DNA of 43,123 nt, from positions 1-43,123 of the forward strand of contig JAJKHS010000047.1 of the NCBI GenBank assembly GCA_021154885.1, given 5' to 3'. The stretch comes from Thermoanaerobaculum sp. GTDB lineage: Bacteria; Acidobacteriota; Thermoanaerobaculia; Multivoradales; UBA5704. Shown piece after piece: positions 1 through 35,128 of the stretch. The notes under the pieces were generated by a model that ran no database searches, was not told where the DNA came from, and worked only from the letters and a program-made list of their open reading frames with translations. Position numbers and translations under genes: made by a program. The first letter of the stretch is position 1; every line of letters starts with the position of its first letter.

Positions 1-219
1 CCCGAAGGGGCAAAGGCATGTAGCCCGGGGCTGGCGCTTTTTGCCAGCCCCGGGTCAACGTAGCCAACAAAATCCTCAAGCCCCGAAGGGGCGGCGGCAG
101 TAGGCTTCCAACGATGAGCTGCCGCCGCCCCTTCGGGGCTCTGGGATCTTTTTGGGTTGGGTTCCCGGGGCTGGCAAAAAGCGCCAGCCCCGGGCTACAT
201 GCCACTACCCCTTCGGGGC
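1..219. repeat. Large palindromic interspersed repeat, left edge
   Basis: Two arms of about 100 bp (1-100 and 119-219) are near-reverse complements around a ~18-nt centre. Each arm contains a CCCGAAGGGG-type small palindrome and a nested hairpin GCCCGGGGCTGGCGC-TTTTT-GCCAGCCCCGGG. The same block returns, partly degraded, at 42876-43030. There is no ORF of protein-like composition here. I read it as an interspersed palindromic repeat and not as a terminator, because no gene ends next to it in the window. Confidence 0.85.
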
Positions 220-308
220 AGAAAACCTGACAGATGATCCAGTCTCGAGCTGCCACTCCGGACAAACCGCGAAACGAGCCGGCGGACGCTGCGTGACCCC
301 AACGTGCC

Positions 309-890: not shown

Positions 891-1185
891 TTGGCAGGAG
901 TCATCGCTGCCGCAGCGTGAGCCCTCGCTGGCTCGGCGTGAGTCACTGCTGCCACGGCAGCAGTCATTGCTTCCATGGTAAGCGGTCATCGCTGCCATGG
1001 CAGCAGTCATTGCTTCCATGGCAGCGGTCATCGCTGTCTTGGCAGCAGTCACCGCTGCCACGGCAGCAATCATCGCTGGCTCGGCAGCAGCCATCGCTGC
1101 CACGGCAGCAGTCATCGCTGTCGCGGCAGCAGTCATCGCTGCCGCGGCAGCAGCCGTCGCTGCCATGGCAGGAGCCGTCGCTGCC
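891..1185. repeat. 14-unit 21-bp tandem array of hairpin units
   Basis: Fourteen contiguous units begin at 891, 912, 933, 954, 975, 997, 1018, 1039, 1060, 1081, 1102, 1123, 1144 and 1165. All are 21 bp except the unit at 975, which is 22 bp. The consensus is NYGGCAGCAGTCATCGCTGCC. Most units can fold as a short hairpin (GGCAGC, 7-nt loop AGTCATC, GCTGCC). There are no spacers, so it is not a CRISPR array. Nearly every frame is open through it because the unit is a multiple of three, which explains long spurious ORFs. It ends about 118 bp before the CHAT-SAVED start. Confidence 0.9.
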
Positions 1186-1290
1186 TCGACAGGGCCAAGC
1201 CCTGGGCGGGAGAAGAGGGCCGATGAGGATCTTGGGAGGGCCACCGGCGCGGCCGGCAATCTGTCAAACTGGATTCAAGAGCGCCCCGGA

Positions 1291-1306
1291 AGGAGGAATC
1301 CGATTG
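1291..1306 (+). promoter_or_regulatory. Strong RBS fixing a TTG start for the CHAT-SAVED gene
   Basis: AGGAGG at 1291-1296 lies 7 nt before the TTG at 1304. The frame is open further upstream, to an ATG at 1223 (with a weaker purine-rich stretch before it) and to 917. However, that added sequence is repeat-derived or low complexity, while the CHAT-protein-like sequence begins right after this TTG. Confidence 0.65.
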
Positions 1307-3265: not shown

Positions 3266-3276
3266 CTCCTCGCTCG

Positions 3277-3317
3277 CCTGGGAGCGCCGGCGTCCCGCCG
3301 GCAGCTAACTCCGTTTT
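3277..3317 (+). terminator. Hairpin plus T-run terminator after CHAT-SAVED
   Basis: A GCCGGCGTCCCGCCGGC hairpin is followed by AGCTAACTCCG and a T-run (TTTTTT), starting about 12 nt after the stop codon. The same module recurs at 13462-13575 and 19716-19766, so it is a repeat that can also serve as a terminator. If it works here, cmr1 needs its own promoter. Confidence 0.55.
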
Positions 3318-3382
3318 TTCTTCCCCGTCAGGGAAAAAGTTGATTTGGGTCTATAAACATTCCTCGATGGAAGGTGTCTTAC

Positions 3383-3411
3383 TTGTCGATAGGGGCGGCC
3401 TGCTGTAGGCT
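3383..3411 (+). promoter_or_regulatory. Candidate promoter for the cmr operon
   Basis: TTGTCG (3383-3388), a 17-bp spacer and TAGGCT (3406-3411) lie 35 nt before the cmr1 ATG. The arrangement matches a sigma-70-like promoter, and the same TAGGCT hexamer at 17-bp spacing is found before the gene at 29435. It is based on pattern only. Confidence 0.35.
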
Positions 3412-3445
3412 CTCCTGAAAAAGCAACTTCTGAGAAGGCGGTGGA

Positions 3446-4672
3446 ATGCAGCGCGAGACCTTTCAGCTCGAGTTCGTGACGCCTTGCTTCCTGGCCGGTG
3501 CGGAGGGGAGGACGGAATGGCGTGCCGCATCCATCCGTGGCCAACTCCGCTGGTGGTTCCGGGCGGTGGCGGGGGGATGCTGGGGAGGCGATCTCGACCG
3601 AGTCCGGCGCGAAGAGGCGCGGCTCTTCGGCTCGACCGAGCGGAAGTCGCTCCTCCAGGTGCAGGCCCTCAACGCGCCGGATTCGACCAAGAACCGCTTC
3701 GGGCGGCCACGCAATGCCGCCGAACTGGCGCGGTCATGGGGCGACGAAGAGCCCGAGACCGTCCAAAGGCTGAAGCTCGTGCGCAAAGGCGAGGAGGTGC
3801 CCTCCAATCCCGTCCAGTATCTCGCCTTCGGTCCGGTCGCCTTCAAAGACCGCGATTTGATCATCCGGCCCTACTTCCCGGCCAAGTCCGAGGCGACGTT
3901 CAAGCTCCTTTGGGGCGCCGGAATTGTGGAAGAAGAGACTCGAAAGGTTTTCGCCAGGGCGTTGTGGGCCTGGCTCAACCTCGGCGGCGTAGGGGCCAAG
4001 AATCGCAAAGGTTTCGGCTCGCTGAGGTGCAAGGAGCCGAACAAGATGTATCGCGGTCCTGCAAGCCGCGAAGAGTTTCTCGCGGAGGTCAAGGTCCTGC
4101 TGCGGGAGGCCCGCGAATTCACAGAGCTTCCGGTCTGGACCCATTTCTCCTCGCGATCCCGCATTTTCCTGGCAGCTCACCCTGCCCATTCGTGGGAGGA
4201 GGCCATGGAGTGGCTTGGGGCCTGGCTCATCGGCTTCCGGCGCCGCTACGGATTCCCAGGGGATTCCCGGACCTTGGGGAAAGTCGCGCTGAAGAATCGC
4301 GACTACGAATGGGCGGCCCCCAACGGACACCACGCCCGCGAAAACGTTCCGGACCGGGCGGGTTTCGGGCTCCCCCTGCCGTTCCGCAAGAAGAAGGACG
4401 GCGAGACCGTGATCTGGGGTTTGGAGGGCGAACAGGAAGAGTCGGACGCCCGCCGGGCCTCGCCGCTTCTCCTTCACGTCGCGAAATTCGGCAGTCTCTT
4501 CGTTCCCGTGCTTACCTATCTCCCCGCGGAATTCCTCCCGGAGAAAGCGCGATTCAAATTCAAGGATCATCCGGAGGAGTCCTTCGGCATGACCGCCGAG
4601 CAGAAGGGTATCATCGATCAGTTTCTTGGCGATCTCCTCAAGAAAGACCTCATCCAGGAGGTCACCCCATGA
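3446..4672 (+). CDS. cmr1: Cmr1, type III-B RAMP protein
   Basis: A 408-aa RAMP-superfamily protein and subunit of the Cmr effector complex. In characterised Cmr complexes Cmr1 sits near the 3' end of the crRNA and helps target RNA capture. The sequence starts with the typical beta strand of Cmr1 (FQLEFVTPCFLAGA) followed by the hallmark RGQLRWWFRA motif at ~31-40, and has a glycine-rich loop GGVGAKNRKGFGSL at ~177-190. The length fits the family. A purine-rich stretch (GAGAAGGCGG) precedes the ATG. Its stop overlaps the cas10 start (ATGA at 4669-4672), so the two are translationally coupled. Confidence 0.95.
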   Translation: MQRETFQLEFVTPCFLAGAEGRTEWRAASIRGQLRWWFRAVAGGCWGGDLDRVRREEARLFGSTERKSLLQVQALNAPDSTKNRFGRPRNAAELARSWGDEEPETVQRLKLVRKGEEVPSNPVQYLAFGPVAFKDRDLIIRPYFPAKSEATFKLLWGAGIVEEETRKVFARALWAWLNLGGVGAKNRKGFGSLRCKEPNKMYRGPASREEFLAEVKVLLREAREFTELPVWTHFSSRSRIFLAAHPAHSWEEAMEWLGAWLIGFRRRYGFPGDSRTLGKVALKNRDYEWAAPNGHHARENVPDRAGFGLPLPFRKKKDGETVIWGLEGEQEESDARRASPLLLHVAKFGSLFVPVLTYLPAEFLPEKARFKFKDHPEESFGMTAEQKGIIDQFLGDLLKKDLIQEVTP

Positions 4673-6270
4673 GCCGGGAGACCGCGCTCCTCACCTTCGG
4701 CATCGGGCCGGTGCATTCGTTCATCGCCCAGGCGCGGCGGGTGTCGGACGTGTGGGCAGGGAGCTATCTCCTCTCCCATTTGACGCGGCAGGCGATTGCT
4801 GTCGTGAAAAACGACGAACATTGCCAGATGATCTTCCCCTACATCGAAAAGGGGCAGGATGTTCCGGACGGCCTTCCCAACCGGTTCGTCTGCCGGGTTC
4901 CTCTGGCGAGGGCGGACGAGGTTGCCCAGACGATGAAGGCGGAGATCGAACGGGTTTGGGACGTCTCGGTCAAGAGAGCCGTCAAAGATCTGGGCCCGAG
5001 CCTCTCTCCCCCTCCGAGCCTGTGGACGCCGGAACGCGATCCCAGACGGCCGCGCCAGACCGATCGCCTATTGGACATCGTCTGGTCGTGGGTCGCCGAG
5101 CAGCCTGATTACGGTTCGGCCTCGCTGGAAGGAGCCCGGCGGTTCACGGCATCCCGGCACTTCAGGCCGTTCTCGCAGATCTGGGAAAAAGGAGAAAAGT
5201 GCGCCATCTGCGGCGAGCGGACGGCTCTTCCCAACGGTGACCGGGCCGATGTGAGGAAGGCATGGCAGAAGGCCGAGCAGGAAGCGAAGGAGACGCCCGG
5301 GAGCCACCTGGCCCGGTTTCTTCGTGAGGACCAGGGCCGGCTCTGCCTCGTCTGCGCCACGAAACGTTTCTTTCCTCTCGATGAGGTGCAACACCAGAGG
5401 TTCGCGGCCTTCGACGAGTTCCAGCCCTCCGAAGAGGCTCCCTACTTCGCCCTGGTCAAATTGGATGGAGACCGCATGGGGCGCATCCTGAGCCTGGATT
5501 CGAGCCAGGTCCAGGGCGGCAAGCTCGAGGGCTTCCACCGGGAGGTATCGAAGGCTCTGACGGAATTCGCGGACGGCCTGCGAATCAAGAATTCGGCGGA
5601 CCTGAACCTCACCGCCTTGGAAAACCCTCCAATCGCGAAGCGGCCTCCCCAACTGATCTACGCCGGGGGAGACGACGTGCTTCTCGTCTGCGATCCGCGG
5701 GATGCCTTGCCTCTCGTTCGGAGCATTCGGGAGCGCTACCTCGCGGCGTTCAAGGATGCACGGCCTTATCTCAAGGAGACAGGCGAGCCGTTCACGATCT
5801 CCGCCGCAGTGCTGTTCGCTCATCCCACGCATGCCGCGGGCGTTGCGTTGCAGGATCTGGAAGACCTCCTGAAGTACGGGGCCAAGGCTCGCGCCAACCG
5901 GGACGCCGTAGCGATCCGCCTGGTCAAGCGTGGCGGAGTCCCGGAGGAGGTGGCCTTCTCCTGGAGCGACAAGGAGGCGCCGTCCGAAGGCTGGATCGGG
6001 CGGATGGAGGCCATCGTCGACCGGCTTCACGAAGGAGGGGTCAGCTCGCGCCAGACGTTCACACTCCGCCTGGAGGAGCAGACTCTGCTGGGCGTCTTCC
6101 AAAAGGATTCTGCGCGCTGGACGCGCTGGCTGGCGGACCGGCTGTCGCGCAACGAGGTGGAGGCGGGCCAGGCCGAATCCCTGGCCGGCCTGGTGACCCC
6201 TTTCTTCGTTCACGACCATGCAGCGGCGCTGCGCATCGCCCGCTTCCTCGGACGGGAGGTGGTGCGGTGA
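4669..6270 (+). CDS. cmr2: Cmr2/Cas10, cyclase-type without HD domain
   Basis: The large subunit of the type III-B complex, 533 aa. It begins directly with the GIGPVHSFIAQARR...WAGSYLLS block that in full-length Cmr2 follows the HD nuclease domain, so the HD domain is missing. A zinc ribbon is formed by C178xxC181 and C226xxC229. The first palm motif is LDGDRMG (265-271) and the cyclase motif GGDD is at 333-336, followed by a helical C-terminal region. Family knowledge: GGDD palms convert ATP to cyclic oligoadenylates when target RNA is bound, and the HD domain cuts ssDNA. I infer a complex whose Cas10 only signals, consistent with two SAVED receptors encoded alongside. Full-length homologues are usually 800-1000 aa. 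The ORF is open upstream in this frame, but that part overlaps cmr1 and is not Cas10-like. The stop overlaps the cmr3 GTG start. Confidence 0.95.
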   Translation: MSRETALLTFGIGPVHSFIAQARRVSDVWAGSYLLSHLTRQAIAVVKNDEHCQMIFPYIEKGQDVPDGLPNRFVCRVPLARADEVAQTMKAEIERVWDVSVKRAVKDLGPSLSPPPSLWTPERDPRRPRQTDRLLDIVWSWVAEQPDYGSASLEGARRFTASRHFRPFSQIWEKGEKCAICGERTALPNGDRADVRKAWQKAEQEAKETPGSHLARFLREDQGRLCLVCATKRFFPLDEVQHQRFAAFDEFQPSEEAPYFALVKLDGDRMGRILSLDSSQVQGGKLEGFHREVSKALTEFADGLRIKNSADLNLTALENPPIAKRPPQLIYAGGDDVLLVCDPRDALPLVRSIRERYLAAFKDARPYLKETGEPFTISAAVLFAHPTHAAGVALQDLEDLLKYGAKARANRDAVAIRLVKRGGVPEEVAFSWSDKEAPSEGWIGRMEAIVDRLHEGGVSSRQTFTLRLEEQTLLGVFQKDSARWTRWLADRLSRNEVEAGQAESLAGLVTPFFVHDHAAALRIARFLGREVVR

Positions 6271-7451
6271 GCAGTGACGGCTGGCAGGCGTTCGAGCTCG
6301 TGCCGAGCGACGTCCTCTTCTTTCGGGACGGCAAGCCCAGCACGATGGGAGCGGATCATTATTTGCGATCACTTTTTCCACCCTTCCCCTCCACGCTCTA
6401 TGGAGCGGTGCGCACCCGGCGGCTCCTCGATAGCGGAGTGGAATTGGAAGGGCTGGTGGAGGCGAGCTGGAGCCGCCGTCTTGAAGGGCTCACCGGTGAG
6501 GTGGGCGCCTGGGGCGGCTTCGGCTCGCTCGAATTGCGAGGCCCATGGCTGATCCGCGACCAGGAGGTCCTCTTGCCCGCTCCCGCCGATCTCGGAATCA
6601 CCCTGAAGTGCGCACTGCGGTCGAAGGAGGAGAGACCGAAAATCGACCAGGTGGTGCGCTTCCGGCCCGTCGATGATGCGGACAGGCGCCGGTGGTCCCA
6701 TCCTCTGACCCTTCTCTTCCCGTTCACTTTCGACGGCCAGGAGTGGAAGCCCTGGAAAATCTCCGAGCCCCGGACAGTTGCCGGGGAATGGTTCCTCTCT
6801 CCCAAAGGCCTTTCAGCCTGGCGCAGCGGCGGTGCTCCCGAGCCAGAGGACTTCGTGCACTCGACAGATCTCTGGCACTCCGAGACGCGGACCGGGGTCG
6901 GGCTGGAAACGGATCGGCGGACCAGCAAGCAAGGCCTCCTCTACACCTTCGGCTTCGTCCGTCTTCAGACAGGCGTATCCCTGGGCTTCGAGGTCAAGGG
7001 GTCCGGGCTTCAGCCCGATGGACTCGTTCGCCTGGGAGGAGAGGCCCGCACGGCCTCTCTGCAAGCGGGGCCAGCCCTGCCCGCATTCGGAGGAGGACCG
7101 GCAAGCGGCCGCTTCAGCCTCTGCTTCGCCACTCCGGCGCTCTCTGCGACGGGAGGTTATCCGCCGGGGTTCGCCGCGGACCGGCTGGAGGGGATTCTCG
7201 GGGGCAGGCGCTGCCGGCTGGTGGGCGCAGCCGTGTCCCGCTTCGTCCTCGCCGGCGGCTGGGACCTCGCCCGGCAGTTTCCAAAGCCGCTGCGGCGCGC
7301 CATTCCCGCCGGCTCCGTATTCCTTTTCGAGCCCATGGAGGGCGAGACCGTCTCCCCTGGCGACCTCGACGGGCACTGTTTTTCCGATTTTCCCGGGGAA
7401 GAGCTTGCACGGCAGGGCTTCGGGCTCGCCGTGGCGGGCGTCTCCCATTAG
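6267..7451 (+). CDS. cmr3: Cmr3, type III-B RAMP protein
   Basis: A 394-aa protein starting at a GTG that overlaps the cas10 stop (GTGA). The N-terminus carries the Cmr3 signature LVPSDVLFFRDGKPSTMG (about residues 12-29) followed by FPPFPSTLYGAVR. Near the C-terminus is a glycine-rich segment around GQGFGLAVAG-like residues. In known Cmr complexes Cmr3 binds Cas10 and the crRNA 5' tag. The length is normal for the family. The next gene follows after 9 nt with its own strong RBS. Confidence 0.94.
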   Translation: MSSDGWQAFELVPSDVLFFRDGKPSTMGADHYLRSLFPPFPSTLYGAVRTRRLLDSGVELEGLVEASWSRRLEGLTGEVGAWGGFGSLELRGPWLIRDQEVLLPAPADLGITLKCALRSKEERPKIDQVVRFRPVDDADRRRWSHPLTLLFPFTFDGQEWKPWKISEPRTVAGEWFLSPKGLSAWRSGGAPEPEDFVHSTDLWHSETRTGVGLETDRRTSKQGLLYTFGFVRLQTGVSLGFEVKGSGLQPDGLVRLGGEARTASLQAGPALPAFGGGPASGRFSLCFATPALSATGGYPPGFAADRLEGILGGRRCRLVGAAVSRFVLAGGWDLARQFPKPLRRAIPAGSVFLFEPMEGETVSPGDLDGHCFSDFPGEELARQGFGLAVAGVSH

Positions 7452-7460
7452 GAGGAGCTC

Positions 7461-8378
7461 TTGGCCAGCAAAACACTTTCTGAGATCGGCGTCCTCGGGC
7501 TCTACACCGAGACGGCGCTCCACTGCGGCACCGAAGGCGGCACCGGTTACGTCGATCTGCCGATCCAGCGCGAGCGGCATACGCACTACCCGGTCATTCC
7601 GGGCTCGACGATCAAAGGCGTTCTCCGTGACGAGTTGTCGGGACTGGGCCCGGAGAAGATCACCGCCATCTTTGGCAAGCAGGACGCCCAGAGCCCCGGT
7701 CCCGGCAGCGTCTCGTTCGGCGACGGTATCCTCGTCGCATTCCCTGTCCGCTCCTCGGGCGCGCCGTTCCATTGGGTGACGTGCCCGTTCGTCCTCGAAA
7801 GGGTTTTCAGAAGCCTCGGCGCAGTGGTGAAGGTGAGCGCGCCCGGGTCCGGCCGGGCCTTGGGCGGCGGCGACAAGGAAGAGAACGTCCTGCTGGAAGA
7901 GATCCGCCTGAAAAAGGTTCCGGAGCCCGAGTTCTTCAAAGAGGATGGCCCGCTCGGTCATCTCCTGAAGCTCCTCCCCGCAGGCGAAACCTTCGATTAC
8001 ACCCGCAGGCTCTTCGCCCGGCAGCTCCTGATCGTCTCGGACCACGACTTCAAAGAGTTGGTCGAGACCGGGACAGAGGTGCTGACCCGCATCAAGCTCA
8101 ATTTCCTCGGCACGACGCGGACGCTCAAACCCGAGGACCTTACTGAAGAGGAGCGGCAAAAGGCCGGTCCCGCAGATCTCCAAGGAAACCTTTTCGTCGA
8201 GGAGGTCGTGCCGCCGGAGACGCTGTTCCTCGCAGCACTGCGGGGCGGCGAAACGGCGGGCGATCTGGTGAAGGCCATCCAGGCCCGGTCCGTGATCCGC
8301 TTCGGCGGCGACGAGACGATCGGCCGGGGAATTACACACGTGACCTTCTTCGAGCGGCGCAACGGGAAGGCGGGCTGA
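7461..8378 (+). CDS. cmr4: Cmr4, backbone RAMP and target RNA nuclease
   Basis: A 305-aa backbone subunit. The start is a TTG at 7461 supported by GGAGGAG at 7451-7457; no ATG gives the conserved N-terminus. Residues 13-50 match the Cmr4 core: LYTETALHCGTEGG, then YVDLPIQRERHTHYPVIPGS and TIKGVLRDEL. Asp32 in VDLPIQRE corresponds to the catalytic Asp of Pyrococcus Cmr4 (D26), so target RNA cleavage should be retained. Several copies of Cmr4 normally coat the crRNA. The gene ends 4 nt before cmr5. Confidence 0.95.
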   Translation: MASKTLSEIGVLGLYTETALHCGTEGGTGYVDLPIQRERHTHYPVIPGSTIKGVLRDELSGLGPEKITAIFGKQDAQSPGPGSVSFGDGILVAFPVRSSGAPFHWVTCPFVLERVFRSLGAVVKVSAPGSGRALGGGDKEENVLLEEIRLKKVPEPEFFKEDGPLGHLLKLLPAGETFDYTRRLFARQLLIVSDHDFKELVETGTEVLTRIKLNFLGTTRTLKPEDLTEEERQKAGPADLQGNLFVEEVVPPETLFLAALRGGETAGDLVKAIQARSVIRFGGDETIGRGITHVTFFERRNGKAG

Positions 8379-8382
8379 CCCT

Positions 8383-8766
8383 ATGGCGACCCAAGAACAG
8401 GAGCGCGCGGCCTTCGCTCTCAAGAAAGTGGAAGAGATCGACAAGGACAAAGCGAAGTTCAAGACCCAACTTTTGAAGCTGCCGGCGAGGCTGCACAACA
8501 ACGGCCTCGGGCAAACGGTAGCGTTCTATCTTTCGGCGGGCAAGGAGAAGCCGGAGGTCATCATCTGTGGTTGGATCGAAGCCTGGCTTCAGGACCGGCG
8601 GATTTATCTGGGCGGCAGGTTGATCGACAACATTGCGGGTCAGAGGCTACCTCCCGACGAAGCCGAGGTCCGGTATCGTGAGGCCTCGGTGGAGGTGCGA
8701 GCCCTCGCGGTCTGGCTCAAGCGCTTCGCCGAAGCCTTCATCGAGGGAGAGGAAGAGGCGAAGTGA
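8383..8766 (+). CDS. cmr5: Cmr5, small subunit
   Basis: A 127-aa helical, charged protein with the size and position of Cmr5, the small subunit that lines the inner filament of the Cmr complex. The motif HNNGLGQTVAFYLS (about residues 38-51) is typical of the family. Its ATG is 4 nt after the cmr4 stop, and its own stop overlaps the cmr6 GTG start (GTGA at 8763-8766), in keeping with a single operon. Confidence 0.93.
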   Translation: MATQEQERAAFALKKVEEIDKDKAKFKTQLLKLPARLHNNGLGQTVAFYLSAGKEKPEVIICGWIEAWLQDRRIYLGGRLIDNIAGQRLPPDEAEVRYREASVEVRALAVWLKRFAEAFIEGEEEAK

Positions 8767-9848
8767 GCGGAATTCCCCTCCCTCAGCGTCTCCGGGAGCT
8801 TCTCCCCCTGGGCTCGCCGGGCAACCGCTCCCTCCTCTTCGACAAGGGGATGAATCGGTACGACGGCTCCTGGAAGATCGGCGCCGGCGACAAGGAAGGT
8901 TTCCTCAGCGATTTCGCGGCCGAGTTTGCCAAGCATGGAGGAGAGCGGTACGAATCCTTCCTGGCCCGGAGGGGCGCGGCTCTGGGAGTCGAGCCCGTCT
9001 CCCTCTTCACTCAGACGCGGCTCGTCATCGGCCTTGGCCTCCCGAGCCCCATCGAGACCGGCTTCCTCTTCGACCGTCTCACCGGCTGCCCCTATCTGCC
9101 GGGCTCGAGCGTCAAGGGCCTGCTGCGCGCCACCGCACGGCTGGTGCAGCAGGGAGAGCTCGAAGGTGACAGAGACTTCTGGAGCAAGAACCTCGATCGG
9201 ATCTTCGGACCCGAGATCACTCCGGAATCAACGCCGAAGACCGGCGAAGCGATCTTCTACGACGCCTTTCCCACCCGCTGGCCCGTGCTGGAGGTGGACG
9301 TCCTCACGCCCCACTACGGCAAGTATTACCGGGAGGACGATGTAGCTCCGGGCGACTGGGACAACCCGGTTCCCGTTCCCTTCCTGGCCATCGCCGCCGG
9401 CACGCCGTTCCACTTCTATATCCGGGCTAAGAAAGACGATTCCGGACCGATCAGGAAGCTCCTTGCCACCGGCCTCGACTGGCTGGGTATCGGAGCGAAG
9501 AAGTCGGCGGGGTATGGCGTGTTCGGCAAGGAAGAGCCTGCGAAGCAGGCCAAGGCCCAGGCCGCGCCATCCAAGTCGTCCAGACCGCCGGAGCCGCCAC
9601 CCCCGCCACCGCCACCTCCTACAGTTCCGATCCTTTGGGCTGACGTCGAGCTGAGCCTGCGCGAGGGCGCGGTCGTCGCGCGCAAAGGCAGGCAGACCGC
9701 GAGCTGTCGGCGGGATGAGGTGGCACGGGAGGTTGCAGATGCCTTGAAAAAGAATCGCGAGCTGCGCGCAGATGTTGAAGTCGTCAAAATCCCTGGAGGC
9801 GAATATCGAATCCTCAGCGTCAAGAGCTGGAAGGTTCCCGGAAAATGA
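8763..9848 (+). CDS. cmr6: Cmr6 with an unusual C-terminal extension
   Basis: A 361-aa protein. Residues ~1-255 are a normal Cmr6 RAMP: the block LFTQTRLVIGLGLPSPIETG, then FLFDRLTGCPYLPGSSVKGL, and a GIGAKKSAGYGVFG glycine-rich loop near residues 239-252. After this comes an Ala/Lys-rich stretch, a polyproline run (about 275-287) and a further ~70-residue alpha/beta segment (291-361) that I do not recognise. In known complexes Cmr6 caps the crRNA 3' side. The extension could be a small docking domain or a flexible tether. It starts with GTG overlapping cmr5 and ends overlapping the TIR-SAVED ATG. Confidence 0.93.
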   Translation: MSGIPLPQRLRELLPLGSPGNRSLLFDKGMNRYDGSWKIGAGDKEGFLSDFAAEFAKHGGERYESFLARRGAALGVEPVSLFTQTRLVIGLGLPSPIETGFLFDRLTGCPYLPGSSVKGLLRATARLVQQGELEGDRDFWSKNLDRIFGPEITPESTPKTGEAIFYDAFPTRWPVLEVDVLTPHYGKYYREDDVAPGDWDNPVPVPFLAIAAGTPFHFYIRAKKDDSGPIRKLLATGLDWLGIGAKKSAGYGVFGKEEPAKQAKAQAAPSKSSRPPEPPPPPPPPPTVPILWADVELSLREGAVVARKGRQTASCRRDEVAREVADALKKNRELRADVEVVKIPGGEYRILSVKSWKVPGK

Positions 9849-11071
9849 CCAATCCGCTGGGGCGGTCCTTCCTGAGCTATAAGCGTGATCGCAAGGCTGA
9901 GGCCGAGTTGCTGATCGCGGCTCAGCACGACGTGGGAGTCCCCACCTGGCGGGATGTGGACGACCTCGATGAGCTGCCCACCGAGGATGAGATCCGGCGG
10001 GTCCTGCGAGATCCTGACACGGCGAACGCGATCCTCTGGCTCACTCCTGAAGTGGCGAAGTCGGAGATGATTCGTAAAGTCGAGGCGCCGCTGATCCTCG
10101 AAAGGACCCGTCAGGATGGAGTCTTCTTCGTGATTCCCGTGGCTGCCGGTGGTCTGGACTACTGCGAGGCGGCTGCGCTCCTCGATCCGAGCTTCACCCT
10201 CGAAGACTTGAAGCAATGGAACCTCCGAAAGCTGGCGGCCGACCCCATAGGGCCGGCAGAGGCCGCGGAGGTTGCCATGCGGGTCCTCCGCCGGCGAGTC
10301 GCTGCCATTCACGCATTCCTTCCGGCCGGCACCCCCCTGAAGATGGCCCTGCACACTCGTAAGGCTGCGGCAAGCATGGCAAACTCGTTGAGCCTCCGCT
10401 GGCAACATCGCTGCGAGGGGCGCGAAGCCAGGCCGGGAGCCTGGAAGGACTTTCTTCTCCCGGCTCTGCAGACCGTCGCCAAGGTGATCGAAGAGACGGC
10501 GCCAGAGCGTGCCGTCGAAGCGTCAGGCCTGGCCAGCATCCCCGCGATTACCGCTCTCGGTTGTGAATTCCTGGCGCCCCGCCGTCTGCCGATCTCCTGG
10601 GAGCAATATAACGAAAGACGTGGCTCCCAGCTCTGGTCTCTCAACGCTCCGCGCGAGAGCACGGGGTTCCAGGCGAAATGCGAAGCCAGGGATCTGAGCG
10701 GCCGGGATTTGGCCGTCCTCATCTCGGTGACCGATCACGTCGAGCCGGCCTTCAAGGTAAGCCGGTCCGACCTTCCACCTTTCCGCGCTCTTCTGAGGGT
10801 ATGGAAAGGCGGCGATCCGCCACACGATCTGGAGAACGCAGGACAGGCCGCCGAGCTGTCCTACTTGATCCAGAAGGAGATCCGGAAGGCTCTGAAGGAA
10901 TATCCGGAGATCGTCTGTGTCCATCTCTTCATGGCCATACCTCTCGGGCTCGCCATGATGACCGGGCAGCTCCTCAACAACGTTAACTCCGTGCAGACCT
11001 ACGAGTTGGTGTCGAGCGAGGCCGGTAAGAGCTACAGGCCCGCGGCCCTTCTCCATCCTTCGGGTTGCTGA
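9845..11071 (+). CDS. TIR-SAVED effector
   Basis: A 408-aa protein in two parts. The N-terminal TIR domain (~5-150) has the first strand RSFLSYKRDR, a conserved Trp35 (VPTWRD) and a helix with Glu80 (IRKVEAP), the best candidate for the catalytic glutamate of TIR NADases. The C-terminal SAVED domain (~190-400) ends in VHLFMAIPLGLAMMTGQLLN and a VQTYE motif, aligning with the end of the CHAT-SAVED protein. In a studied CBASS TIR-SAVED, cyclic tri-AMP drives filament assembly and NAD+ destruction. Here the ATG overlaps the cmr6 stop, so Cas10-made cyclic oligoadenylate is the expected trigger. The nucleotide size cannot be read from sequence. Confidence 0.9.
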   Translation: MTNPLGRSFLSYKRDRKAEAELLIAAQHDVGVPTWRDVDDLDELPTEDEIRRVLRDPDTANAILWLTPEVAKSEMIRKVEAPLILERTRQDGVFFVIPVAAGGLDYCEAAALLDPSFTLEDLKQWNLRKLAADPIGPAEAAEVAMRVLRRRVAAIHAFLPAGTPLKMALHTRKAAASMANSLSLRWQHRCEGREARPGAWKDFLLPALQTVAKVIEETAPERAVEASGLASIPAITALGCEFLAPRRLPISWEQYNERRGSQLWSLNAPRESTGFQAKCEARDLSGRDLAVLISVTDHVEPAFKVSRSDLPPFRALLRVWKGGDPPHDLENAGQAAELSYLIQKEIRKALKEYPEIVCVHLFMAIPLGLAMMTGQLLNNVNSVQTYELVSSEAGKSYRPAALLHPSGC

Positions 11072-25261: not shown

Positions 25262-26320
25262 ATGAAATCAGGACTCTCCGAGTCGTATCGCTGGCAGCGC
25301 GGCTATTCGGCCCCTCCCTGGGGGATCGATCTCCTGCTCACGGACGCCTGCAACCTGCGCTGCAGCTACTGCCCGATCTGGGGCGAGAACGCGGTCGTGC
25401 CGGCACGCCCCCACATGATGGACACGGATTCCGCTCTCCGCCTGATCCGCTCGGTCGTCGATTTCCATCCCATGATCCGCCTCTTCGGCGGCGAGCCGTT
25501 CGTGCACCCCGAGTGGAAGAAGATCGTGGACTTCGCCCACGGTCTGGGGCTCCATTGCACGGCCGTGAGCAACGGCATGCGCCTGGCGCGAGAGGCGGAG
25601 GACGTCGTCCGCTCCGGCCTGCTGGCGGTGGGCATCTCGCTCGACACCACGGATCCCGCCAACGACGCCTCACGCGGCCAGGACTCGACGGCCACCGTGC
25701 AGCGCGGCCTCGCCGCGTTGAGCGAAGCGAAGAAACGGCTGGGCTCGCGGACGCCCGTGGTCGAGATCTACACCACGGTGCACGAGGGAACCTATCACCG
25801 TCTCGCCGAGTGGGCGGAGGAGCTCTCCTCGTGGGACATCGACAAGTTGCGGTTGCAACACCTGATCTGGTTCTCTTCCCAGCAGCTCCAGTCTTCCATG
25901 GACCTGCTGCGGCGGGACGTGATGCCGGACCCCTCTTTCTTTCGCTCGGAGGATGCCTCCTACACCCAGGACCGGCTCCCTCGCATCGACGTCAAGATCC
26001 TCGCGGAGCAGCTCCAGACGATCCGCAGCAAGGAGTACCCATTCCGGATCGAATCCCATCCGGACCTCTCGGTCGAAGAGATGGTGCGTTATTATGGCGA
26101 GACTGAATTCCAGCGGCACGACAAGGTGACTTGCACGACGATGGAGAACTACGCCTTCATCGATCCCAAGGGCCGTCTCTATCCGTGTCTCACACTCGAC
26201 ATGGGAAACGTCTTCGAATCGTCTTTCCAGGAGGTCTGGAACGGAGCTCGTTTCCGGTCCTTCCGCCGGCTCATCCGGCGCGAGAAGCGGCTCCCTCTCT
26301 GCCATCGCTGCCCGGATTGA
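25262..26320 (+). CDS. Radical SAM protein with SPASM-like C-terminus
   Basis: A 352-aa protein. The radical SAM cluster motif is C30-NLR-C34-SY-C37. The C-terminal part has further cysteines (CTTMENYAF, LYPCLTLDMG and a terminal C347-HR-C350) arranged like a SPASM or twitch auxiliary iron-sulfur site, as in peptide-modifying and dehydrogenase maturases. AAAGGGGG is just before the ATG. No precursor peptide is recognised beside it, so its substrate is open. Confidence 0.87.
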   Translation: MKSGLSESYRWQRGYSAPPWGIDLLLTDACNLRCSYCPIWGENAVVPARPHMMDTDSALRLIRSVVDFHPMIRLFGGEPFVHPEWKKIVDFAHGLGLHCTAVSNGMRLAREAEDVVRSGLLAVGISLDTTDPANDASRGQDSTATVQRGLAALSEAKKRLGSRTPVVEIYTTVHEGTYHRLAEWAEELSSWDIDKLRLQHLIWFSSQQLQSSMDLLRRDVMPDPSFFRSEDASYTQDRLPRIDVKILAEQLQTIRSKEYPFRIESHPDLSVEEMVRYYGETEFQRHDKVTCTTMENYAFIDPKGRLYPCLTLDMGNVFESSFQEVWNGARFRSFRRLIRREKRLPLCHRCPD

Positions 26321-29434: not shown

Positions 29435-30565
29435 ATGTCTTTCCTCTGCCGCCACAAGCTCTCCGGTAGCCCCCAGCTCTGCGGTTCCGACCGTCCCGAG
29501 GACGCGCCCTGCGGCGCCTTCGAGTACGTCCGCGTCGAGCGGCCGGAGGATCTGCCGCCCCCCGATCCCAGCCTCGTCGATGTCGCAGTGCTGGACATGA
29601 ACCACGGCTGGCCCAACCTCGGCCACGACTGCCTCGTCCACGGCCTGCTCGACGTCGCCTGCGAGCTGCTGCCCATCGCCGAGGAGACCGGGGTCCGCGT
29701 CCGCGCGCTGTCCTTCGACGTGCGCCGCGCCCGGCGGATCCCCGAGCCGCCCGGCGGGCGCTTCTCGATCTATCTCGGCACGGGCGGTCCGGGCCATCTC
29801 GATCCTCACGCCAACGACGGCACCTCCAAGTACAGCCAGGGCCTGCGTGAGGACCCCTCCTGGCAGGCGCCGATCTACAAGCTCTTCGACGACATCCTCG
29901 CCGACGAGAGCGCGTCCCTCCTCGCCGTCTGCCACACGTTCGGCGTGATGTGCCACTGGTCGGGGCTGGCCCAGCCGGTCTTCCGCGGCCCGGAGAAGGG
30001 GGGCAAGAGCGCCGGCGTGCTGGAGAACGTGCTCGCGCCCGAGGCCGGGGACCACCCCTGGTTCCGCCGCTTCGGCCAGGAGTTGGCGGCCGGCGGGCGG
30101 CTGCGCATCCTCGACAACCGCCTCTTCGACCTCATCCCGCGCCCCGGCGCGTTCCCGGCCGGGACCGTGCCGATCGGTTGGGAGACGCTGGGCGTCGGCG
30201 GTCCCCGGGGCGACGCGCTGACCATGCTCGAATTCGCGCGCGACAGCGGCGGGGCCATGCCGCGGGTCTTCGGCGTCAACCACCATCCCGAGATCGTGGA
30301 CCGGGCGCGGCAGCTCATCCTCCTAGAGCAGAAGCTGGAGTGCGGCGAGGTGAGCGCGCAGTGGGCAGCGGAGCGCCGGGAGGCCCTGACCCGCGCCTAT
30401 CCGGACGAGGACTCCGACGCCCGCCTGCGGCTCACCTCGGACTACACGCTGCTCGGACCGCTGCGTTTCCACCTCCGGCGGCAGATGCGGCTGCGGACCG
30501 AGTCGCTGGGGTTCCGGGCCGATCTGCACGAGGACAGGGTGGCGGGGAGCGTCCGAAACCCGTGA
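29435..30565 (+). CDS. Class I glutamine amidotransferase-like protein
   Basis: A 376-aa protein with a GATase1 fold. Residues 113-120 (YLGTGGPG) are the oxyanion strand, the nucleophile is Cys166 (LAVCHTFG) and the other triad members are His283/His284 and Glu286 (GVNHHPEI). It is longer than a bare glutaminase domain; residues ~290-376 are helical and unassigned. The stop overlaps the start of the ATP-grasp gene by one base (TGATG). I infer that it feeds ammonia to, or processes a product of, that ligase. Confidence 0.85.
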   Translation: MSFLCRHKLSGSPQLCGSDRPEDAPCGAFEYVRVERPEDLPPPDPSLVDVAVLDMNHGWPNLGHDCLVHGLLDVACELLPIAEETGVRVRALSFDVRRARRIPEPPGGRFSIYLGTGGPGHLDPHANDGTSKYSQGLREDPSWQAPIYKLFDDILADESASLLAVCHTFGVMCHWSGLAQPVFRGPEKGGKSAGVLENVLAPEAGDHPWFRRFGQELAAGGRLRILDNRLFDLIPRPGAFPAGTVPIGWETLGVGGPRGDALTMLEFARDSGGAMPRVFGVNHHPEIVDRARQLILLEQKLECGEVSAQWAAERREALTRAYPDEDSDARLRLTSDYTLLGPLRFHLRRQMRLRTESLGFRADLHEDRVAGSVRNP

Positions 30566-32100
30566 TGCCGCAACCGCCGTTCGCCGTGGATCTCACCCCC
30601 GAGGCCGAGATCGCCAGGTTCCGGGAGCTCCAGCCTCGCCTCCAGGCGGTGTGGGAAGCCCTCATGATGCGCGACGAGGAGCCCCACACCTCGGTCGTCG
30701 TGCCGTCCATGACCCTCGACCAGAGCGAGCTGCGGAAGATCGACGGCGCGAGCTTCTACGAAGAGCGCCTCCTCTTCCTGCTGATCCGGCTTCGCAACCC
30801 GCGGGCGCGGGTGGTCTACGTCACCTCGCAGCCGGTGCACCCGATGATCCTGGACTACTACTTCCAGCTCCTCGCCGGCATCCCCGCGAGCCACGCCCGG
30901 TCGCGCCTGACGCTGCTCTGTGCTCACGACGCCTCGCCGCGCTCGCTGACCGAGAAGATCCTTGAACGACCGCGCCTCGTCGAGCGCATCCGCGAGGGCA
31001 TCCACGACCGCTCGCGCGCCTACCTCACGGTCTTCAACTCGACGCCGGCAGAGCGCCGGCTCGCCGTCCTGCTCGGCATTCCGCTCAACGGCTGCGATCC
31101 CGACCTCGCCCACCTCGGCACCAAGTCCGGCAGCCGCAAAGTCTTCCGTCAGGCCGGAGTGCCCCTGCCCGAGGGCTTCGAGGACCTCCACGGCAAGGCC
31201 GAGGTCGAAGAGGCGCTCGTCGAGCTGGCGGCGCGGCGGCCGGGCCTGCGGCGTGCCGTCGTCAAGCTGAACGACAGCTTCTCGGGCGAGGGCAACGCCA
31301 TCTTCCGCTACCCCGAGGCGGCCAGCCGGGCCGCGGTGCGGGAGGCGCTGCACCGCATCGAGCTGTCGGTGGCCAACGAGACCGTCGAGGAATATTTCGA
31401 GAAGTTCAGCCGGATGGGGGGCATCGTCGAAGAGTTCATCGACGCCGCCGAGAAGGTCTCGCCGAGCACCCAGCTCCGCGTCAGCCCGGGCCGAGAGGTG
31501 GTGCCCATCTCGACCCACGACCAGATCCTCGGTGGCCCTTCCGATCAGGTTTTCCTCGGCTGCAGCTTTCCGGCGCGCAACGAGTATCGGTTGGCCATTC
31601 AGGAAGCGGCGATGCGGATCGGCGAGGTCCTCGCCGCCGAAGGCGTGGTCAGCCGTTTCGCCGTCGACTTCCTGCTCTGGCGCGACGACCCGGCCGCGGC
31701 CTGGAGCCTCGCGGCGCTGGAGATCAACCTGCGGATGGGCGGCACCACCCATCCCTACCTAGCCCTTCAATTTCTCACCGGCGGCCGTCTCGATCGCGAG
31801 ACGGGCCTCTTCTTCTCGCACTCGGGGAACGCCAAATACTACCGGGCGACCGACAATCTCCGCTCCGAGTCCTACCGCGGCCTGCTGCCCGAGGACCTGA
31901 TCGACATCCTCACCGAGAATCGCCTCCACTACAGCCTCGCGACGGACTCCGGCGTCCTCTTCCACCTGATCGGCGCCGTCTCCGAGTTCGGTAAGCTCGG
32001 GTTGACCGCGATCGGCAACAGCCGCGAGGAGGCGGATGGTCTCTACTACAAAACGTTGGAGGTGCTGGACCGGGAGACGGCGTATGGTCGGGCGGGTTGA
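30565..32100 (+). CDS. PGM1-like ATP-grasp ligase
   Basis: A 511-aa protein resembling the ATP-grasp peptide ligase family named after PGM1 of pheganomycin biosynthesis. Visible features are an N-terminal preATP-grasp region (~40-170), KVFRQAGVPLPEG at the ATP-grasp entry (~192-204), a glycine-rich SFSGEGNA loop (~239-246) and the late metal/ATP motif EINLRMGGTTHP (~387-398). It should join a carboxylate to an amine through an acyl phosphate. It overlaps the GATase gene. Product unknown. Confidence 0.83.
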   Translation: MPQPPFAVDLTPEAEIARFRELQPRLQAVWEALMMRDEEPHTSVVVPSMTLDQSELRKIDGASFYEERLLFLLIRLRNPRARVVYVTSQPVHPMILDYYFQLLAGIPASHARSRLTLLCAHDASPRSLTEKILERPRLVERIREGIHDRSRAYLTVFNSTPAERRLAVLLGIPLNGCDPDLAHLGTKSGSRKVFRQAGVPLPEGFEDLHGKAEVEEALVELAARRPGLRRAVVKLNDSFSGEGNAIFRYPEAASRAAVREALHRIELSVANETVEEYFEKFSRMGGIVEEFIDAAEKVSPSTQLRVSPGREVVPISTHDQILGGPSDQVFLGCSFPARNEYRLAIQEAAMRIGEVLAAEGVVSRFAVDFLLWRDDPAAAWSLAALEINLRMGGTTHPYLALQFLTGGRLDRETGLFFSHSGNAKYYRATDNLRSESYRGLLPEDLIDILTENRLHYSLATDSGVLFHLIGAVSEFGKLGLTAIGNSREEADGLYYKTLEVLDRETAYGRAG

Positions 32101-32128: not shown

Positions 32129-32581
32129 ATGCCGCAGTCCCTGGCCCGCATCCTGGTGCACATGATTTTCAGCACGAAGAATCGCGTCCCGGTTCTGACT
32201 CCTGAGATTCAGGATGAGCTCCATCCGTACCTCGCGGTCGTATTGCGCGAGTACGATTGTCCTCCGTTGCAGGTCGGCGGCGTCGAGGACCACGTCCATA
32301 TGTTGTTTGGTCTGTCACGGACCCGAACCGTGGCGCAGGTGGTCGAAACGGTGAAGACCAGCTCGTCCAAATGGATCAAGACCAAGGGACCGGCCGTCGC
32401 GCAATTTCATTGGCAGACCGGCTACGGCGCCTTTTCGGTCAGCCAATCGAACGCCGACTCCGTGATGCGATACATCCAGAATCAGGCGGAGCACCACCGC
32501 AAGGTGACATTCCAGGAGGAGTACCGGAAATTCCTGCGGCGATATCAGATCGCCTATGACGAGAAATACGTCTGGGATTGA
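32129..32581 (+). CDS. IS200-like (Y1/RAYT-type) transposase
   Basis: A 150-aa HUH single-strand transposase. The HUH pair is His55/His57 in VEDHVHMLF and the catalytic Tyr is Tyr115 in VMRYIQNQAEHH. There is no accessory TnpB. It is followed at ~140 bp by a large composite palindrome, the arrangement expected of REP-associated transposases that act on palindromic repeats in trans. GAGAGGAGAGCG precedes the ATG. Intact, so possibly active. Confidence 0.9.
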   Translation: MPQSLARILVHMIFSTKNRVPVLTPEIQDELHPYLAVVLREYDCPPLQVGGVEDHVHMLFGLSRTRTVAQVVETVKTSSSKWIKTKGPAVAQFHWQTGYGAFSVSQSNADSVMRYIQNQAEHHRKVTFQEEYRKFLRRYQIAYDEKYVWD

Positions 32582-33098: not shown

Positions 33099-34265
33099 TC
33101 AAGCCCCGCTCTGCCAGACGAGGAAGTGGGATTTGCCCCGGGAGGGGACACGCTCCCGCCCCACAAGACCCTCGACTCGAAGTTCTTCTGTGGATTGCCA
33201 TTCTTTGATCCACTTCTTGAGATCACTCTCCCAGACAAGGGGTGACTCAAGGGCCAAGATCCACGCGTCGTCAAACAAGACGCGCTTGCGAATCCTTAGA
33301 AGATCCAGAACGCTCTGCCTCGCCTTGCCGATATAACGGTCCCGAAGCTGACTGTAGTACGGGCTTTCAGTCGCCGTCTCCCTCGCCCAAGAGAGCTCTG
33401 TCTGCCCCGTCCGCTCCTCTCGTTTCCGTCTCTGTGCCCCCTCCCTCAATCGCTCCATCTCCTGCATCGCCGCTTTTTCGGCTTCCTTGAAAACTTCGAC
33501 CCCCTTCGGATGACGTGTGGCATAGATCAAATGGAAATGGGGTCGGTCAATTTCGGGATGTAGAACGATTGCCGGAAGCACGTGCGTAAAGCGCCCCTCC
33601 CGCCTCAACATGCCCCTATACTCGCGGACGAGAGCATCATCAAGATCCTGGCCCGTCAGACCTGCAACTCTATCCCTGACTTCAGCGGACCCGAAAAGTT
33701 CCTCAAAGCTCTGGCGAGAGTTTTCATCCTTCAGGAATCTCCGGATGTGGCTCGTCATGAAGTTGATCAAGACCTCTCCCGGGTCGAGCTTCAGTAGGGG
33801 AGAGATTCGGTGGCAAGCGAACCCCGTCCATCCTGTAGGGTCGATGAAAATGAAAGGGAAAGTCCCTTGAGCTCCTTCGCGGATGAACTTCAGGATAGAG
33901 CTTACCGATTGCTCGAAGGAACCGTTCTGGGGTTTTATTTCCGCGTCCTTCACACCCTCAGCAAAGCTTTCGAGCTGCTGATAGGCGGCTCGATCCTCCT
34001 CCAGAAAGAAGCATCGCAGCCGGAGGTTCTTTCCCTTCTCTCTGTGAGTGGCGCGGGCCTTCCGAAGCTCGTCCAAAGCGATGGCAAACGAGCTGTCCTT
34101 GAGATCAGGAGAGCGGACATTCCATGGGCCAGCAAACCCGTCAATATAGGTGATCGACTCCCATTTGTGGGCAACTATATGCGCGAAACGTTCGAGGTAA
34201 TGCCGAAGAATGTCGTGCTTAACGCGTGTCTGCTCGCGCCTTTCGTAGAGCTCGTCGTTCGTCAT
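33099..34265 (-). CDS. tcmP: Three-Cys-motif partner protein TcmP
   Basis: A 388-aa protein matching the TcmP family that accompanies three-Cys-motif proteins. It has an N-terminal TRVKHDILRHYLERFAHIVA block, YIDGFAGPW, FIFIDPTGWTG and HFHLIYATRHPKG. The FIDPTGW/DGFAGPW elements resemble a methyltransferase-like Rossmann fold, but catalysis is not established. The frame is open upstream of the ATG at 34265; that ATG starts the conserved region and lies 7 nt after the stop of its partner gene. Confidence 0.88.
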   Translation of the reverse strand: MTNDELYERREQTRVKHDILRHYLERFAHIVAHKWESITYIDGFAGPWNVRSPDLKDSSFAIALDELRKARATHREKGKNLRLRCFFLEEDRAAYQQLESFAEGVKDAEIKPQNGSFEQSVSSILKFIREGAQGTFPFIFIDPTGWTGFACHRISPLLKLDPGEVLINFMTSHIRRFLKDENSRQSFEELFGSAEVRDRVAGLTGQDLDDALVREYRGMLRREGRFTHVLPAIVLHPEIDRPHFHLIYATRHPKGVEVFKEAEKAAMQEMERLREGAQRRKREERTGQTELSWARETATESPYYSQLRDRYIGKARQSVLDLLRIRKRVLFDDAWILALESPLVWESDLKKWIKEWQSTEELRVEGLVGRERVPSRGKSHFLVWQSGA

Positions 34266-34272
34266 GCAAGTC

Positions 34273-35064
34273 TCAGCAGAACGCCTCGACTTCGGCCAGA
34301 GCACTTCGGAGCGATTCGACATCCACGACCGCAGGGATTTCGCGATGTGGCGTCTCGTCGTACGTCCGCCCACCGAGCTCGCGACCGGCGCGCGCTTTCT
34401 GCTTTCCTCCCCACTGTTTGAAGAAGAAAGGAACCTCCGCCTCCAAGCACTGGTCGCGGATCTGCACGACCCAGGACTCTCGGATCGGACGTGCACCCGG
34501 ACCGCTCTCCCCGCCGACGATGACCCAACCGATCGCGGAGAGATCGATCCTGCCGAGCGACTCCAGGAGCGGCTCGATCGACAAAAATCGGATTACCGCC
34601 GGAGCGGCTCGGAGGTGGTCGATCCGAGGTAGTCCCTGTTTCCGGTTTTCAACGCTCACTCCCCACCAGATGTGCGGATCCCCCGCGGCAAACCGCAGCT
34701 TCGTCTTCAGCAGGTCGCGCAGCCTCTCGGACCGCTTGGTGAGGACCTGGTAGGTGTGCCAACTCGCGAGCTGCATGACGCGGACGACCCGGACGATGTA
34801 ATCGTCGGGGACCTCTTCGTGGAACAGGTCGCTCATCGAGTTCACGAAGATCATTTTCGGCTTGCGCCAGAGCAGAGGCTGGGTCAACTTCTCGGGGACC
34901 AGGCGCAGGTCGAATCCCTGTTCGTAGGGGTGGCCCGGAACTCCGCGGAAGCGCTCCGCGAAGGTCTCCGCGTAGCAGTGGGCACAGCCGGAGGTGATCT
35001 TGGTGCAACCTCGCACAGGGTTCCACGTCGCATCCGTCCACTCGATGGCTGAGTGCTCGCTCAT
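34273..35064 (-). CDS. DUF5131 (phage Gp37/Gp68) three-Cys-motif protein
   Basis: A 263-aa protein of the Gp37/Gp68 family from the ATG at 35064. The N-terminal IEWTDATWNPVRGC...GCAHCYAE holds C20, C27 and C30, the three-Cys motif thought to bind an iron-sulfur cluster in a radical-SAM-like barrel. FVNSMSDLFHE and VGGESGPGARP are further family marks. It occurs next to TcmP in many genomes and phages; the function of the pair is unknown. Longer upstream ORF sequence is not conserved-looking. Confidence 0.88.
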   Translation of the reverse strand: MSEHSAIEWTDATWNPVRGCTKITSGCAHCYAETFAERFRGVPGHPYEQGFDLRLVPEKLTQPLLWRKPKMIFVNSMSDLFHEEVPDDYIVRVVRVMQLASWHTYQVLTKRSERLRDLLKTKLRFAAGDPHIWWGVSVENRKQGLPRIDHLRAAPAVIRFLSIEPLLESLGRIDLSAIGWVIVGGESGPGARPIRESWVVQIRDQCLEAEVPFFFKQWGGKQKARAGRELGGRTYDETPHREIPAVVDVESLRSALAEVEAFC

Positions 35065-35128
35065 GCTGTGAGAATAGCCGGCAACGGGGCGTAAAAGCAA
35101 GAGAGGCTGCGATAGGTAGAGTTGGCCC

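Follow-up and report, generated by a model that had tools for sequence, protein, structure and literature searches.

In this study, we analysed a 43,123-nucleotide (nt) stretch of DNA from the acidobacterium Thermoanaerobaculum sp. (GenBank assembly GCA_021154885.1, contig JAJKHS010000047.1, positions 1 to 43,123 of the forward strand; hereafter, the window), and in particular two adjacent forward-strand genes. The first one (29435-30565, 376 amino acids (aa)) encodes a protein with a predicted class I glutamine amidotransferase (GATase) fold, and was delineated from its open reading frame (ORF), an alignment of 58 members and a structure model. The second one (30565-32100, 511 aa; alignment of 17 members) encodes an ATP-grasp ligase of the PGM1/BesA type. 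Our results suggest that this pair was split off as one half of a conserved set of ligase and hydrolase genes, hereafter the cassette, whose products would build and trim a small peptide or amide of a gamma-glutamyl type resembling glutathione. We infer the chemistry, and give this reading as a whole slightly less than an even chance. The case for the cassette itself, and for the membership of the GATase and the PGM1-like ligase in it, is strong.

The cassette and its distribution

We collected 63 GATase loci by scanning genomes from 84,980 species for matches to a pair of short peptide patterns, a search that was not exhaustive. All these loci are titled as metagenome-assembled, and comprise 54 acidobacterial loci, three from Elusimicrobia, three from Eremiobacterota, two from Planctomycetota and one from Riflebacteria. 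The cassette was defined by clustering the ORFs of the loci, followed by targeted tblastn searches; split ligase matches in two loci (L030 and L059) were merged by their coordinates and scored as present. Its parts are an ATP-grasp enzyme that we call RIMK2, a carboxylate-amine ligase (GCS1), one of two further ATP-grasp families (AG5 or CP9), and either the GATase or an M29-peptidase-like protein. An alpha/beta esterase is often present too, as is the PGM1-like ligase in many genomes. At least one of the five ligases accompanies the GATase in 46/63 loci (GCS1 in 32, RIMK2 in 29, the PGM1-like ligase in 18, AG5 in 16 and CP9 in 12), and the esterase is found in 23. In L042 and its duplicate L089, the genes for GATase, PGM1-like ligase, esterase, RIMK2, GCS1 and AG5 stand in one row.

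Wherever the PGM1-like ligase gene is present, it is the next cassette gene downstream of the GATase gene. Since this order, with both genes on the same strand, recurs in 18/63 related loci, the adjacency seen in the window is not due to chance. AG5 is directly the next downstream cassette gene in 15 of its 16 loci. In the window, the two genes are joined by the string TGATG, in which base 30565 belongs both to the GATase stop codon TGA (30563-30565) and to the start codon ATG of the ligase gene. This one-base overlap of two real genes, already pointed out in a preliminary description of the sequence, is borne out by the ORFs. It is particular to the window, the tblastn matches lying 15-181 nt apart in the 18 relatives. 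The same description saw no known pathway genes next to the pair, which holds for the window and fails for the related loci, where a ligase cassette surrounds the GATase. The survey of gene neighbourhoods that it proposed retrieved no characterised pathway around the pair, and placed the pair within a larger ligase/hydrolase cassette.

Other parts of the cassette are found elsewhere in the same genome. A second contig (C2, locus L086) carries RIMK2, GCS1, an M29-peptidase-like gene, an M20 peptidase gene and AG5 together; the alpha/beta esterase was not found at this locus. Because three further ligases sit on this contig, we consider the window pair as the portion of the cassette that lies apart in this genome. 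An IS200/Y1-type transposase-like gene (32129-32581) begins 28 nt past the stop codon of the ATP-grasp gene, and may be a trace of the event that separated the pair from the remaining cassette.

Co-occurrence was assessed in a panel of 32 genomes, 18 with the GATase and 14 without it, the latter hand-picked from the same order and class. Two genomes with GATase fragments at contig ends (G055 and G138) and one with a distant match (G267, E 3.5e-7) were left out. RIMK2 was detected at E<=1e-40 in 18/18 of the GATase genomes and in 0/14 of the others, and AG5 in 14/18 and 0/14, respectively. AG5 and CP9 replace one another: each of the four GATase genomes that lack AG5 carries CP9 (E<1e-100), and a single genome (G005) has both. 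The PGM1-like ligase is found in 12/18 of the GATase genomes, the other six giving no match, and in 3/14 of the GATase-less ones. Among 297 genomes of the phylum, the GATase is present in 19, a strong RIMK2 (E<=1e-90) in 78, and AG5 in 37 at full length and in one more as a fragment. A strong RIMK2 occurs in 18 of the 19 GATase-positive genomes, where 5.0 would be expected (Fisher p 1e-10, uncorrected for kinship). Co-occurrence therefore nests the GATase within the wider group of RIMK2 genomes, with the PGM1-like ligase as an optional member. The preliminary description had taken the pair as a biosynthetic unit of its own, a view that the scattered presence of the PGM1-like ligase in the panel does not support. 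Since the RimK-like gene accompanies the GATase throughout the panel and the PGM1-like ligase does so in two thirds of it, the pair proposed there is partly supported at best.

Some loci show additional neighbours. An aromatic amino acid lyase gene lies just upstream of a GCS1-RIMK2-CP9-GATase cassette in L036, L039 and L041 (the copy scanned was that of L041). An elusimicrobial cassette (L052:7358-14861) has RIMK2, two AG5-like proteins of 576-580 aa and an M20 peptidase around the GATase, and a 304-aa protein of this locus resembles, by eye, a peptidase of the S51/cyanophycinase type. Genes for CinA, GpsA, ZnuA, GlmU, YvcK, RecA and ABC transporters are also neighbours of the GATase in some clades; they are clade-local and were taken as background.

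A GATase-fold family with an altered nucleophile elbow

Judged by its sequence, the window GATase belongs to a family of its own, with an altered elbow and unseen by Pfam. Scans of the window protein against Pfam and NCBIfam assigned it to no family. Across the 58 aligned members (57 of the 63 loci plus the window; L029, L048, L059, L064, L084 and L085 were left out of the alignment and tree), Pfam returned no GATase family at E<=0.1, and NCBIfam gave only a weak match, to the glutamine amidotransferase PRK09065, in five members (best E 0.0021). Searching the own genome with the Pfam GATase family (PF00117) found six other places and missed the window gene. A direct sequence search of the PDB with the window protein gave 0 matches, and a profile of 17 GATases gave only weak ones, with GMP synthase first at E 0.018. 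The plasmid records searched with the GATase yielded no match.

Within this family, the catalytic residues are intact. Cys166 (29930-29932), His284 (30284-30286) and Glu286 (30290-30292) are invariant in 58/58 members, and so is the proline of the His284-Pro-Glu286 motif (30284-30292). The GTGGPG sequence at residues 115-120 (29777-29794), which we take to be the oxyanion loop, is near-invariant, with 54 to 58 of 58 members agreeing at each position (G120 in 58/58; G117, G118 and P119 in 57/58, with one gap). The surroundings of the nucleophile Cys166 are those that set the family apart. Canonical glutamine-using class I GATases have a CxGxQ nucleophile elbow, the last glutamine of which contacts the glutamine substrate. 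This motif occurs at 6/6 of the PF00117 places of the own genome, two of which read CYGMQ and CRGLQ, and in 0/58 of the family members. The family elbow reads C-H-[ST]-[FY]-G instead: the C and H, like CH[ST][FY] as a whole, are found in 58/58 members, followed by G in 57 and by E in one. Given the role of the missing glutamine in ordinary GATases, its loss favours a changed substrate.

The structure model of the window protein (predicted local distance difference test (pLDDT) 87.9, predicted template modelling score (pTM) 0.89) settles, at the level of prediction, that it adopts a class I GATase fold. Its top fold match is the plant enzyme gamma-glutamyl peptidase 1 (GGP1; Z score 19.1, root-mean-square deviation (rmsd) 4.9, 237 aligned). 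An unassigned GATase, TM1158, ties with it (Z 18.6, rmsd 3.8, 228 aligned), and lower down come PuuD (Z 16.4, rmsd 3.7, 222 aligned) and, ahead of it, the small subunit of carbamoyl-phosphate synthetase (Z 17.2, rmsd 3.1, 205 aligned). Of the 50 fold matches listed (Z 15.7-19.1), all but one are GATases or fold relatives such as homoserine transsuccinylase; the exception is 6mtg, the title of which is not telling. The preliminary description had proposed a class I amidotransferase with an intact Cys-His-Glu triad; the triad and the predicted fold agree with it, and recognition by a Pfam GATase family does not follow. We take the GATase-fold protein to be most likely a gamma-glutamyl hydrolase/peptidase or transferase. 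The protein also has a Cys-rich N-terminal extension (29435-29515), modelled with low confidence, with Cys at residues 5, 16 and 26 in the window. Across the 58 members, many of which are gapped here, Cys is found at column 5 in 20, at column 16 in 21 and at column 20 in 18. A metal site is possible in this segment.

An alternative is that the pair constitutes a two-subunit glutamine-dependent amidotransferase, in which the GATase would free ammonia from glutamine and the PGM1-like ATP-grasp would spend it on converting a carboxylate to a primary amide. The intact triad and oxyanion loop are compatible with such an enzyme, as are the fold resemblance to the small subunit of carbamoyl-phosphate synthetase, the TGATG coupling in the window, the same-strand adjacency in 18/63 loci and the first rank of GMP synthase, at only E 0.018, in the profile search. 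However, the PGM1-like ligase is missing in 6/18 GATase genomes and present in 3/14 without the GATase, the next cassette gene is AG5 instead in 15/63 loci, and the CxGxQ elbow is absent from 58/58 members. Moreover, the solved structure closest to the ligase is that of BesA, an enzyme whose name describes the coupling of two amino acids. We regard a two-subunit amidotransferase as unlikely.

The slot between GCS1 and AG5 bears on the same question. The GATase occupies it in 15 loci and an M29-peptidase-like gene does so in 10; no locus has both genes there, and four (G107, G299, G297 and G119, where the GATase lies outside the slot) have neither of them in this place. L089 was skipped in this count as a duplicate of L042. 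That a peptidase-like gene can occupy the place of the GATase favours a hydrolase role for the latter, and the sharing of the slot is suggestive. Two facts count against reading more into it. The absence of the GATase from the genome was the very reason for retrieving nine of the ten M29 loci, which means that selection accounts for part of the exclusion. In addition, both the GATase and an M29-like gene are found in the window's own genome. A second alternative would make the GATase a true amidotransferase subunit with RIMK2 as its partner and the PGM1-like gene as an accessory. RIMK2 is the only cassette ligase matched throughout the panel (18/18 GATase genomes), and it accompanies 18/19 of the GATase-positive genomes among the 297. 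On the other hand, RIMK2 does not need a GATase, as the 78 genomes with a strong RIMK2 and the 19 with the GATase indicate, and ten cassettes have the M29-peptidase-like gene in the slot. To our knowledge, there is no chemistry by which an M29-peptidase-like enzyme supplies ammonia from glutamine. We consider a RIMK2-dependent amidotransferase quite improbable.

The ligases and the proposed pathway

The second protein of the pair was described beforehand as an ATP-grasp of the PGM1 type, and the domain searches agree. Both PGM1_C (PF18105, 31894-32049; 48.6 bits against a curated cut-off of 22.5) and ATP-grasp_IQCH (79.4 against 27 bits) exceed their Pfam cut-offs, while PreAtp-grasp stays below it (21.4 against 27.5 bits). 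PGM1_C occurs once in the own genome, in this protein. Its sole NCBIfam match is BesA (L-propargylglycine--L-glutamate ligase, NF042917), at 170.4 bits and below the equivalog cut-off of 750, and its best PDB match is BesA 8yi6 (E 2.4e-46), the next one being at 0.33. The E386-I-N388 motif (31720-31728), presumably the ATP-grasp ExN metal site, is conserved in 17/17 aligned members and aligns with the EIN of BesA 8yi6. Plasmid records searched with the ligase gave six matches at 30-52% identity. No further cassette gene was found within about 3 to 8 kb on each side of the ligase in two of these records, from Gemmatirosa and Nonomuraea, or in the GATase-less genomes G246, G313 and G152.

Regarding the other ligases, GCS1 is a carboxylate-amine ligase of the GCS2/YbdK type: with the carboxylate-amine ligase model NF010039, the cut-off of which is 371 bits, the copy in L055 reaches 531.6 bits, and the own-genome copy matches YbdK (PDB 1r8g) at E 3.7e-53. 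RIMK2 is an ATP-grasp nearest to RimK and D-Ala-D-Ala ligases, with all matches weak, and CP9 is nearest to the circularly permuted ATP-grasp enzymes. AG5 has no useful Pfam match. Its structure model (pLDDT 92.5) resembles YgiC (Z 26.6, rmsd 3.5, 346 aligned), glutathionylspermidine synthetase (Z 24.0, rmsd 4.0, 348 aligned), human glutathione synthetase (Z 23.9, rmsd 3.8, 367 aligned), fungal Cp1B (Z 22.9, rmsd 3.4, 360 aligned) and trypanothione synthetase (Z 22.6, rmsd 3.7, 330 aligned). On this model, AG5 is a predicted ATP-grasp family of the glutathione/glutathionylspermidine-synthetase fold that Pfam does not see. AG5 and CP9 are related by profile comparison (E 5.2e-6, probability 86%; 1.8e-5 and 78% in a second comparison), and the 580-residue protein of L052 is an AG5 relative (E 8e-7, probability 92%). 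The comparison of the AG5 and RIMK2 profiles revealed no homology (probability 3.8%).

In the pathway that we propose, GCS1 would form a gamma-glutamyl amide, which RIMK2 and AG5 or CP9 would lengthen via acyl-phosphate chemistry. The PGM1/BesA-like ligase would attach one more amino acid, which may be glutamate, as in the case of BesA. Cys166 of the GATase would form a gamma-glutamyl thioester and pass the glutamyl group to water, as a peptidase, or to another amine, in the manner of plant GGP1, rather than passing ammonia to a synthetase. The amidated peptide or small amide put forward in the preliminary description thus keeps its plausibility as an amide or peptide, with ammonia donation being less favoured than gamma-glutamyl hydrolysis.

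A more specific version, which we find doubtful and offer as speculation, concerns an undescribed gamma-glutamyl peptide akin to glutathione, perhaps a thiol or capped with a polyamine, which Acidobacteriota, along with some Eremiobacterota and Elusimicrobia, would make by means of up to four different amide ligases. This peptide would be maintained by a new class of GATase-fold gamma-glutamyl peptidase, replaceable by an M29-type peptidase, and the window pair would be the half that moved away. The thiol reading of the product is unproven. The bacterial GshB of canonical glutathione biosynthesis (TIGR01380) scores above its cut-off in 0/18 of the GATase genomes and in 2/14 of those without the GATase; the best match among the former (G067) is full length, at 183 against 299 bits. 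According to a published gene survey, bacillithiol is predicted in Acidobacteria (PMC6282198), so that a second thiol is not needed.

A third alternative is a salvage or turnover module, in which the GATase would trim a gamma-glutamyl compound and the ATP-grasp would re-ligate the freed amino acid. An amidohydrolase gene, which may belong to such a module, is located upstream on the same strand and stops 43 nt before the GATase gene; its best NCBIfam model is PRK09061, an amidohydrolase subfamily, below the cut-off (221 against 340 bits). The M20 and M29-like peptidase genes at the cassette locus of the own genome would also suit turnover. Nevertheless, the amidohydrolase has 0 matches (E<=1e-8) in 87 related loci. 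Its proximity therefore looks accidental, it was rejected as a cassette member, and we regard a salvage module as very improbable.

Several further observations weigh against the proposal of a cassette for gamma-glutamyl peptides. None of the five ligases is found in 17/63 loci, 11 of which form one divergent, well supported clade with CinA, GpsA or ZnuA-type neighbours in many loci; in two genomes of this clade, G098 (L076) and G176 (L070), RIMK2, AG5 and the PGM1-like ligase are encoded away from the GATase. Cassettes without the GATase exist, as seen from the 78/297 genomes with a strong RIMK2 and the 19 with the GATase, and GCS1 is not specific to GATase genomes (14/18 against 8/14, p 0.27). 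Both RIMK2 cut-offs (E<=1e-40 and E<=1e-90) were chosen after the results were visible. Weaker RIMK2 relatives occur in GATase-less genomes (best E 5e-35 by protein search) and, by profile, in ten of the 297 genomes (about 1e-45 to 1e-53, best 2e-53). The labels of two ligases are soft: RIMK2 reaches 25.9 bits with TIGR00768 against a cut-off of 143, and CP9 about 24 bits with CP_ATPgrasp_2 against 32. The predicted fold of the GATase cannot separate a hydrolase from an amidotransferase, with GGP1 and TM1158 tied and the carbamoyl-phosphate synthetase small subunit close. Finally, the glutathione-synthetase fold of AG5 is no proof of a thiol, because Cp1B, of the same fold, makes a non-thiol amide; this fungal enzyme is reported to catalyse the initial amide bond formation in the making of an E-64 type compound (PMC12568646).

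Other features of the window and comparison with known systems

The window contains other systems away from the pair. A type III-B CRISPR (Cmr) region extends over 1145-11068, with Cas10/Cmr2 at 4678-6267, and is bracketed by two different SAVED proteins, CHAT-SAVED (1145-3262) and TIR-SAVED (9848-11068). On the reverse strand, a 401-aa protein adjoins a DUF5131 protein (33102-35070), and they match the PADLOC candidate defence systems PDC-M30 and PDC-M41. A radical SAM/SPASM protein (25262-26320) resembles cofactor and peptide maturases; the search of the related loci found no counterpart of it close to the GATase. At the left end of the window (1-230), GC-rich stretches are repeated, by eye, in direct and inverted orientation.

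If our proposal is correct, it provides a concrete pathway for a small peptide that is widespread in Acidobacteriota, as judged from the strong RIMK2 in 78/297 genomes and AG5 in 37/297. It also adds two families invisible to Pfam, namely a GATase-fold protein with a changed elbow and AG5, a ligase of the predicted glutathione-synthetase fold. Moreover, it calls for caution, since an adjacent GATase and ATP-grasp need not constitute an amidotransferase; here, co-occurrence indicates another constant companion.

Among known systems, Arabidopsis GGP1 (PDB 9k7i-9k7l) shares with the window GATase the class I GATase fold, predicted in the case of the latter. GGP1 is reported to cleave a glutathione conjugate in vitro (PMC3042935). 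The two proteins are only 11-12% identical and differ in length, with 244-251 residues in the GGP1 chains and 376 aa in the window protein, which unlike the plant enzyme is bacterial and has the CH[ST][FY]G elbow. The window ATP-grasp is homologous to BesA (8yi6) over positions 51-493, including the EIN motif common to both, and shares the PGM1_C domain with PGM1 of pheganomycin biosynthesis. However, the scanned neighbours in the window suggest neither an alkyne amino-acid cluster nor a pheganomycin cluster. The modelled AG5 is similar to human GSS, GspS, trypanothione synthetase, YgiC and Cp1B over 330-367 residues (Z 22.6-26.6, rmsd 3.4-4.0), with only 11-15% identity to these five proteins. 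GCS1 is similar in sequence to the YbdK/GCS2 enzymes, and differs from them in standing among several other ligases.

Our literature search found no description of this cassette, with most subscription papers, that of Iyer et al. from 2009 included, outside its reach. The amidoligase operons presented by these authors are said to mix ATP-grasp and GCS2-like ligases with hydrolases and to make small peptides; the present cassette may be among them. Altogether, ligase cassettes for small peptides are already known as a kind, and the present one is a variant of them with two families that are invisible to Pfam.

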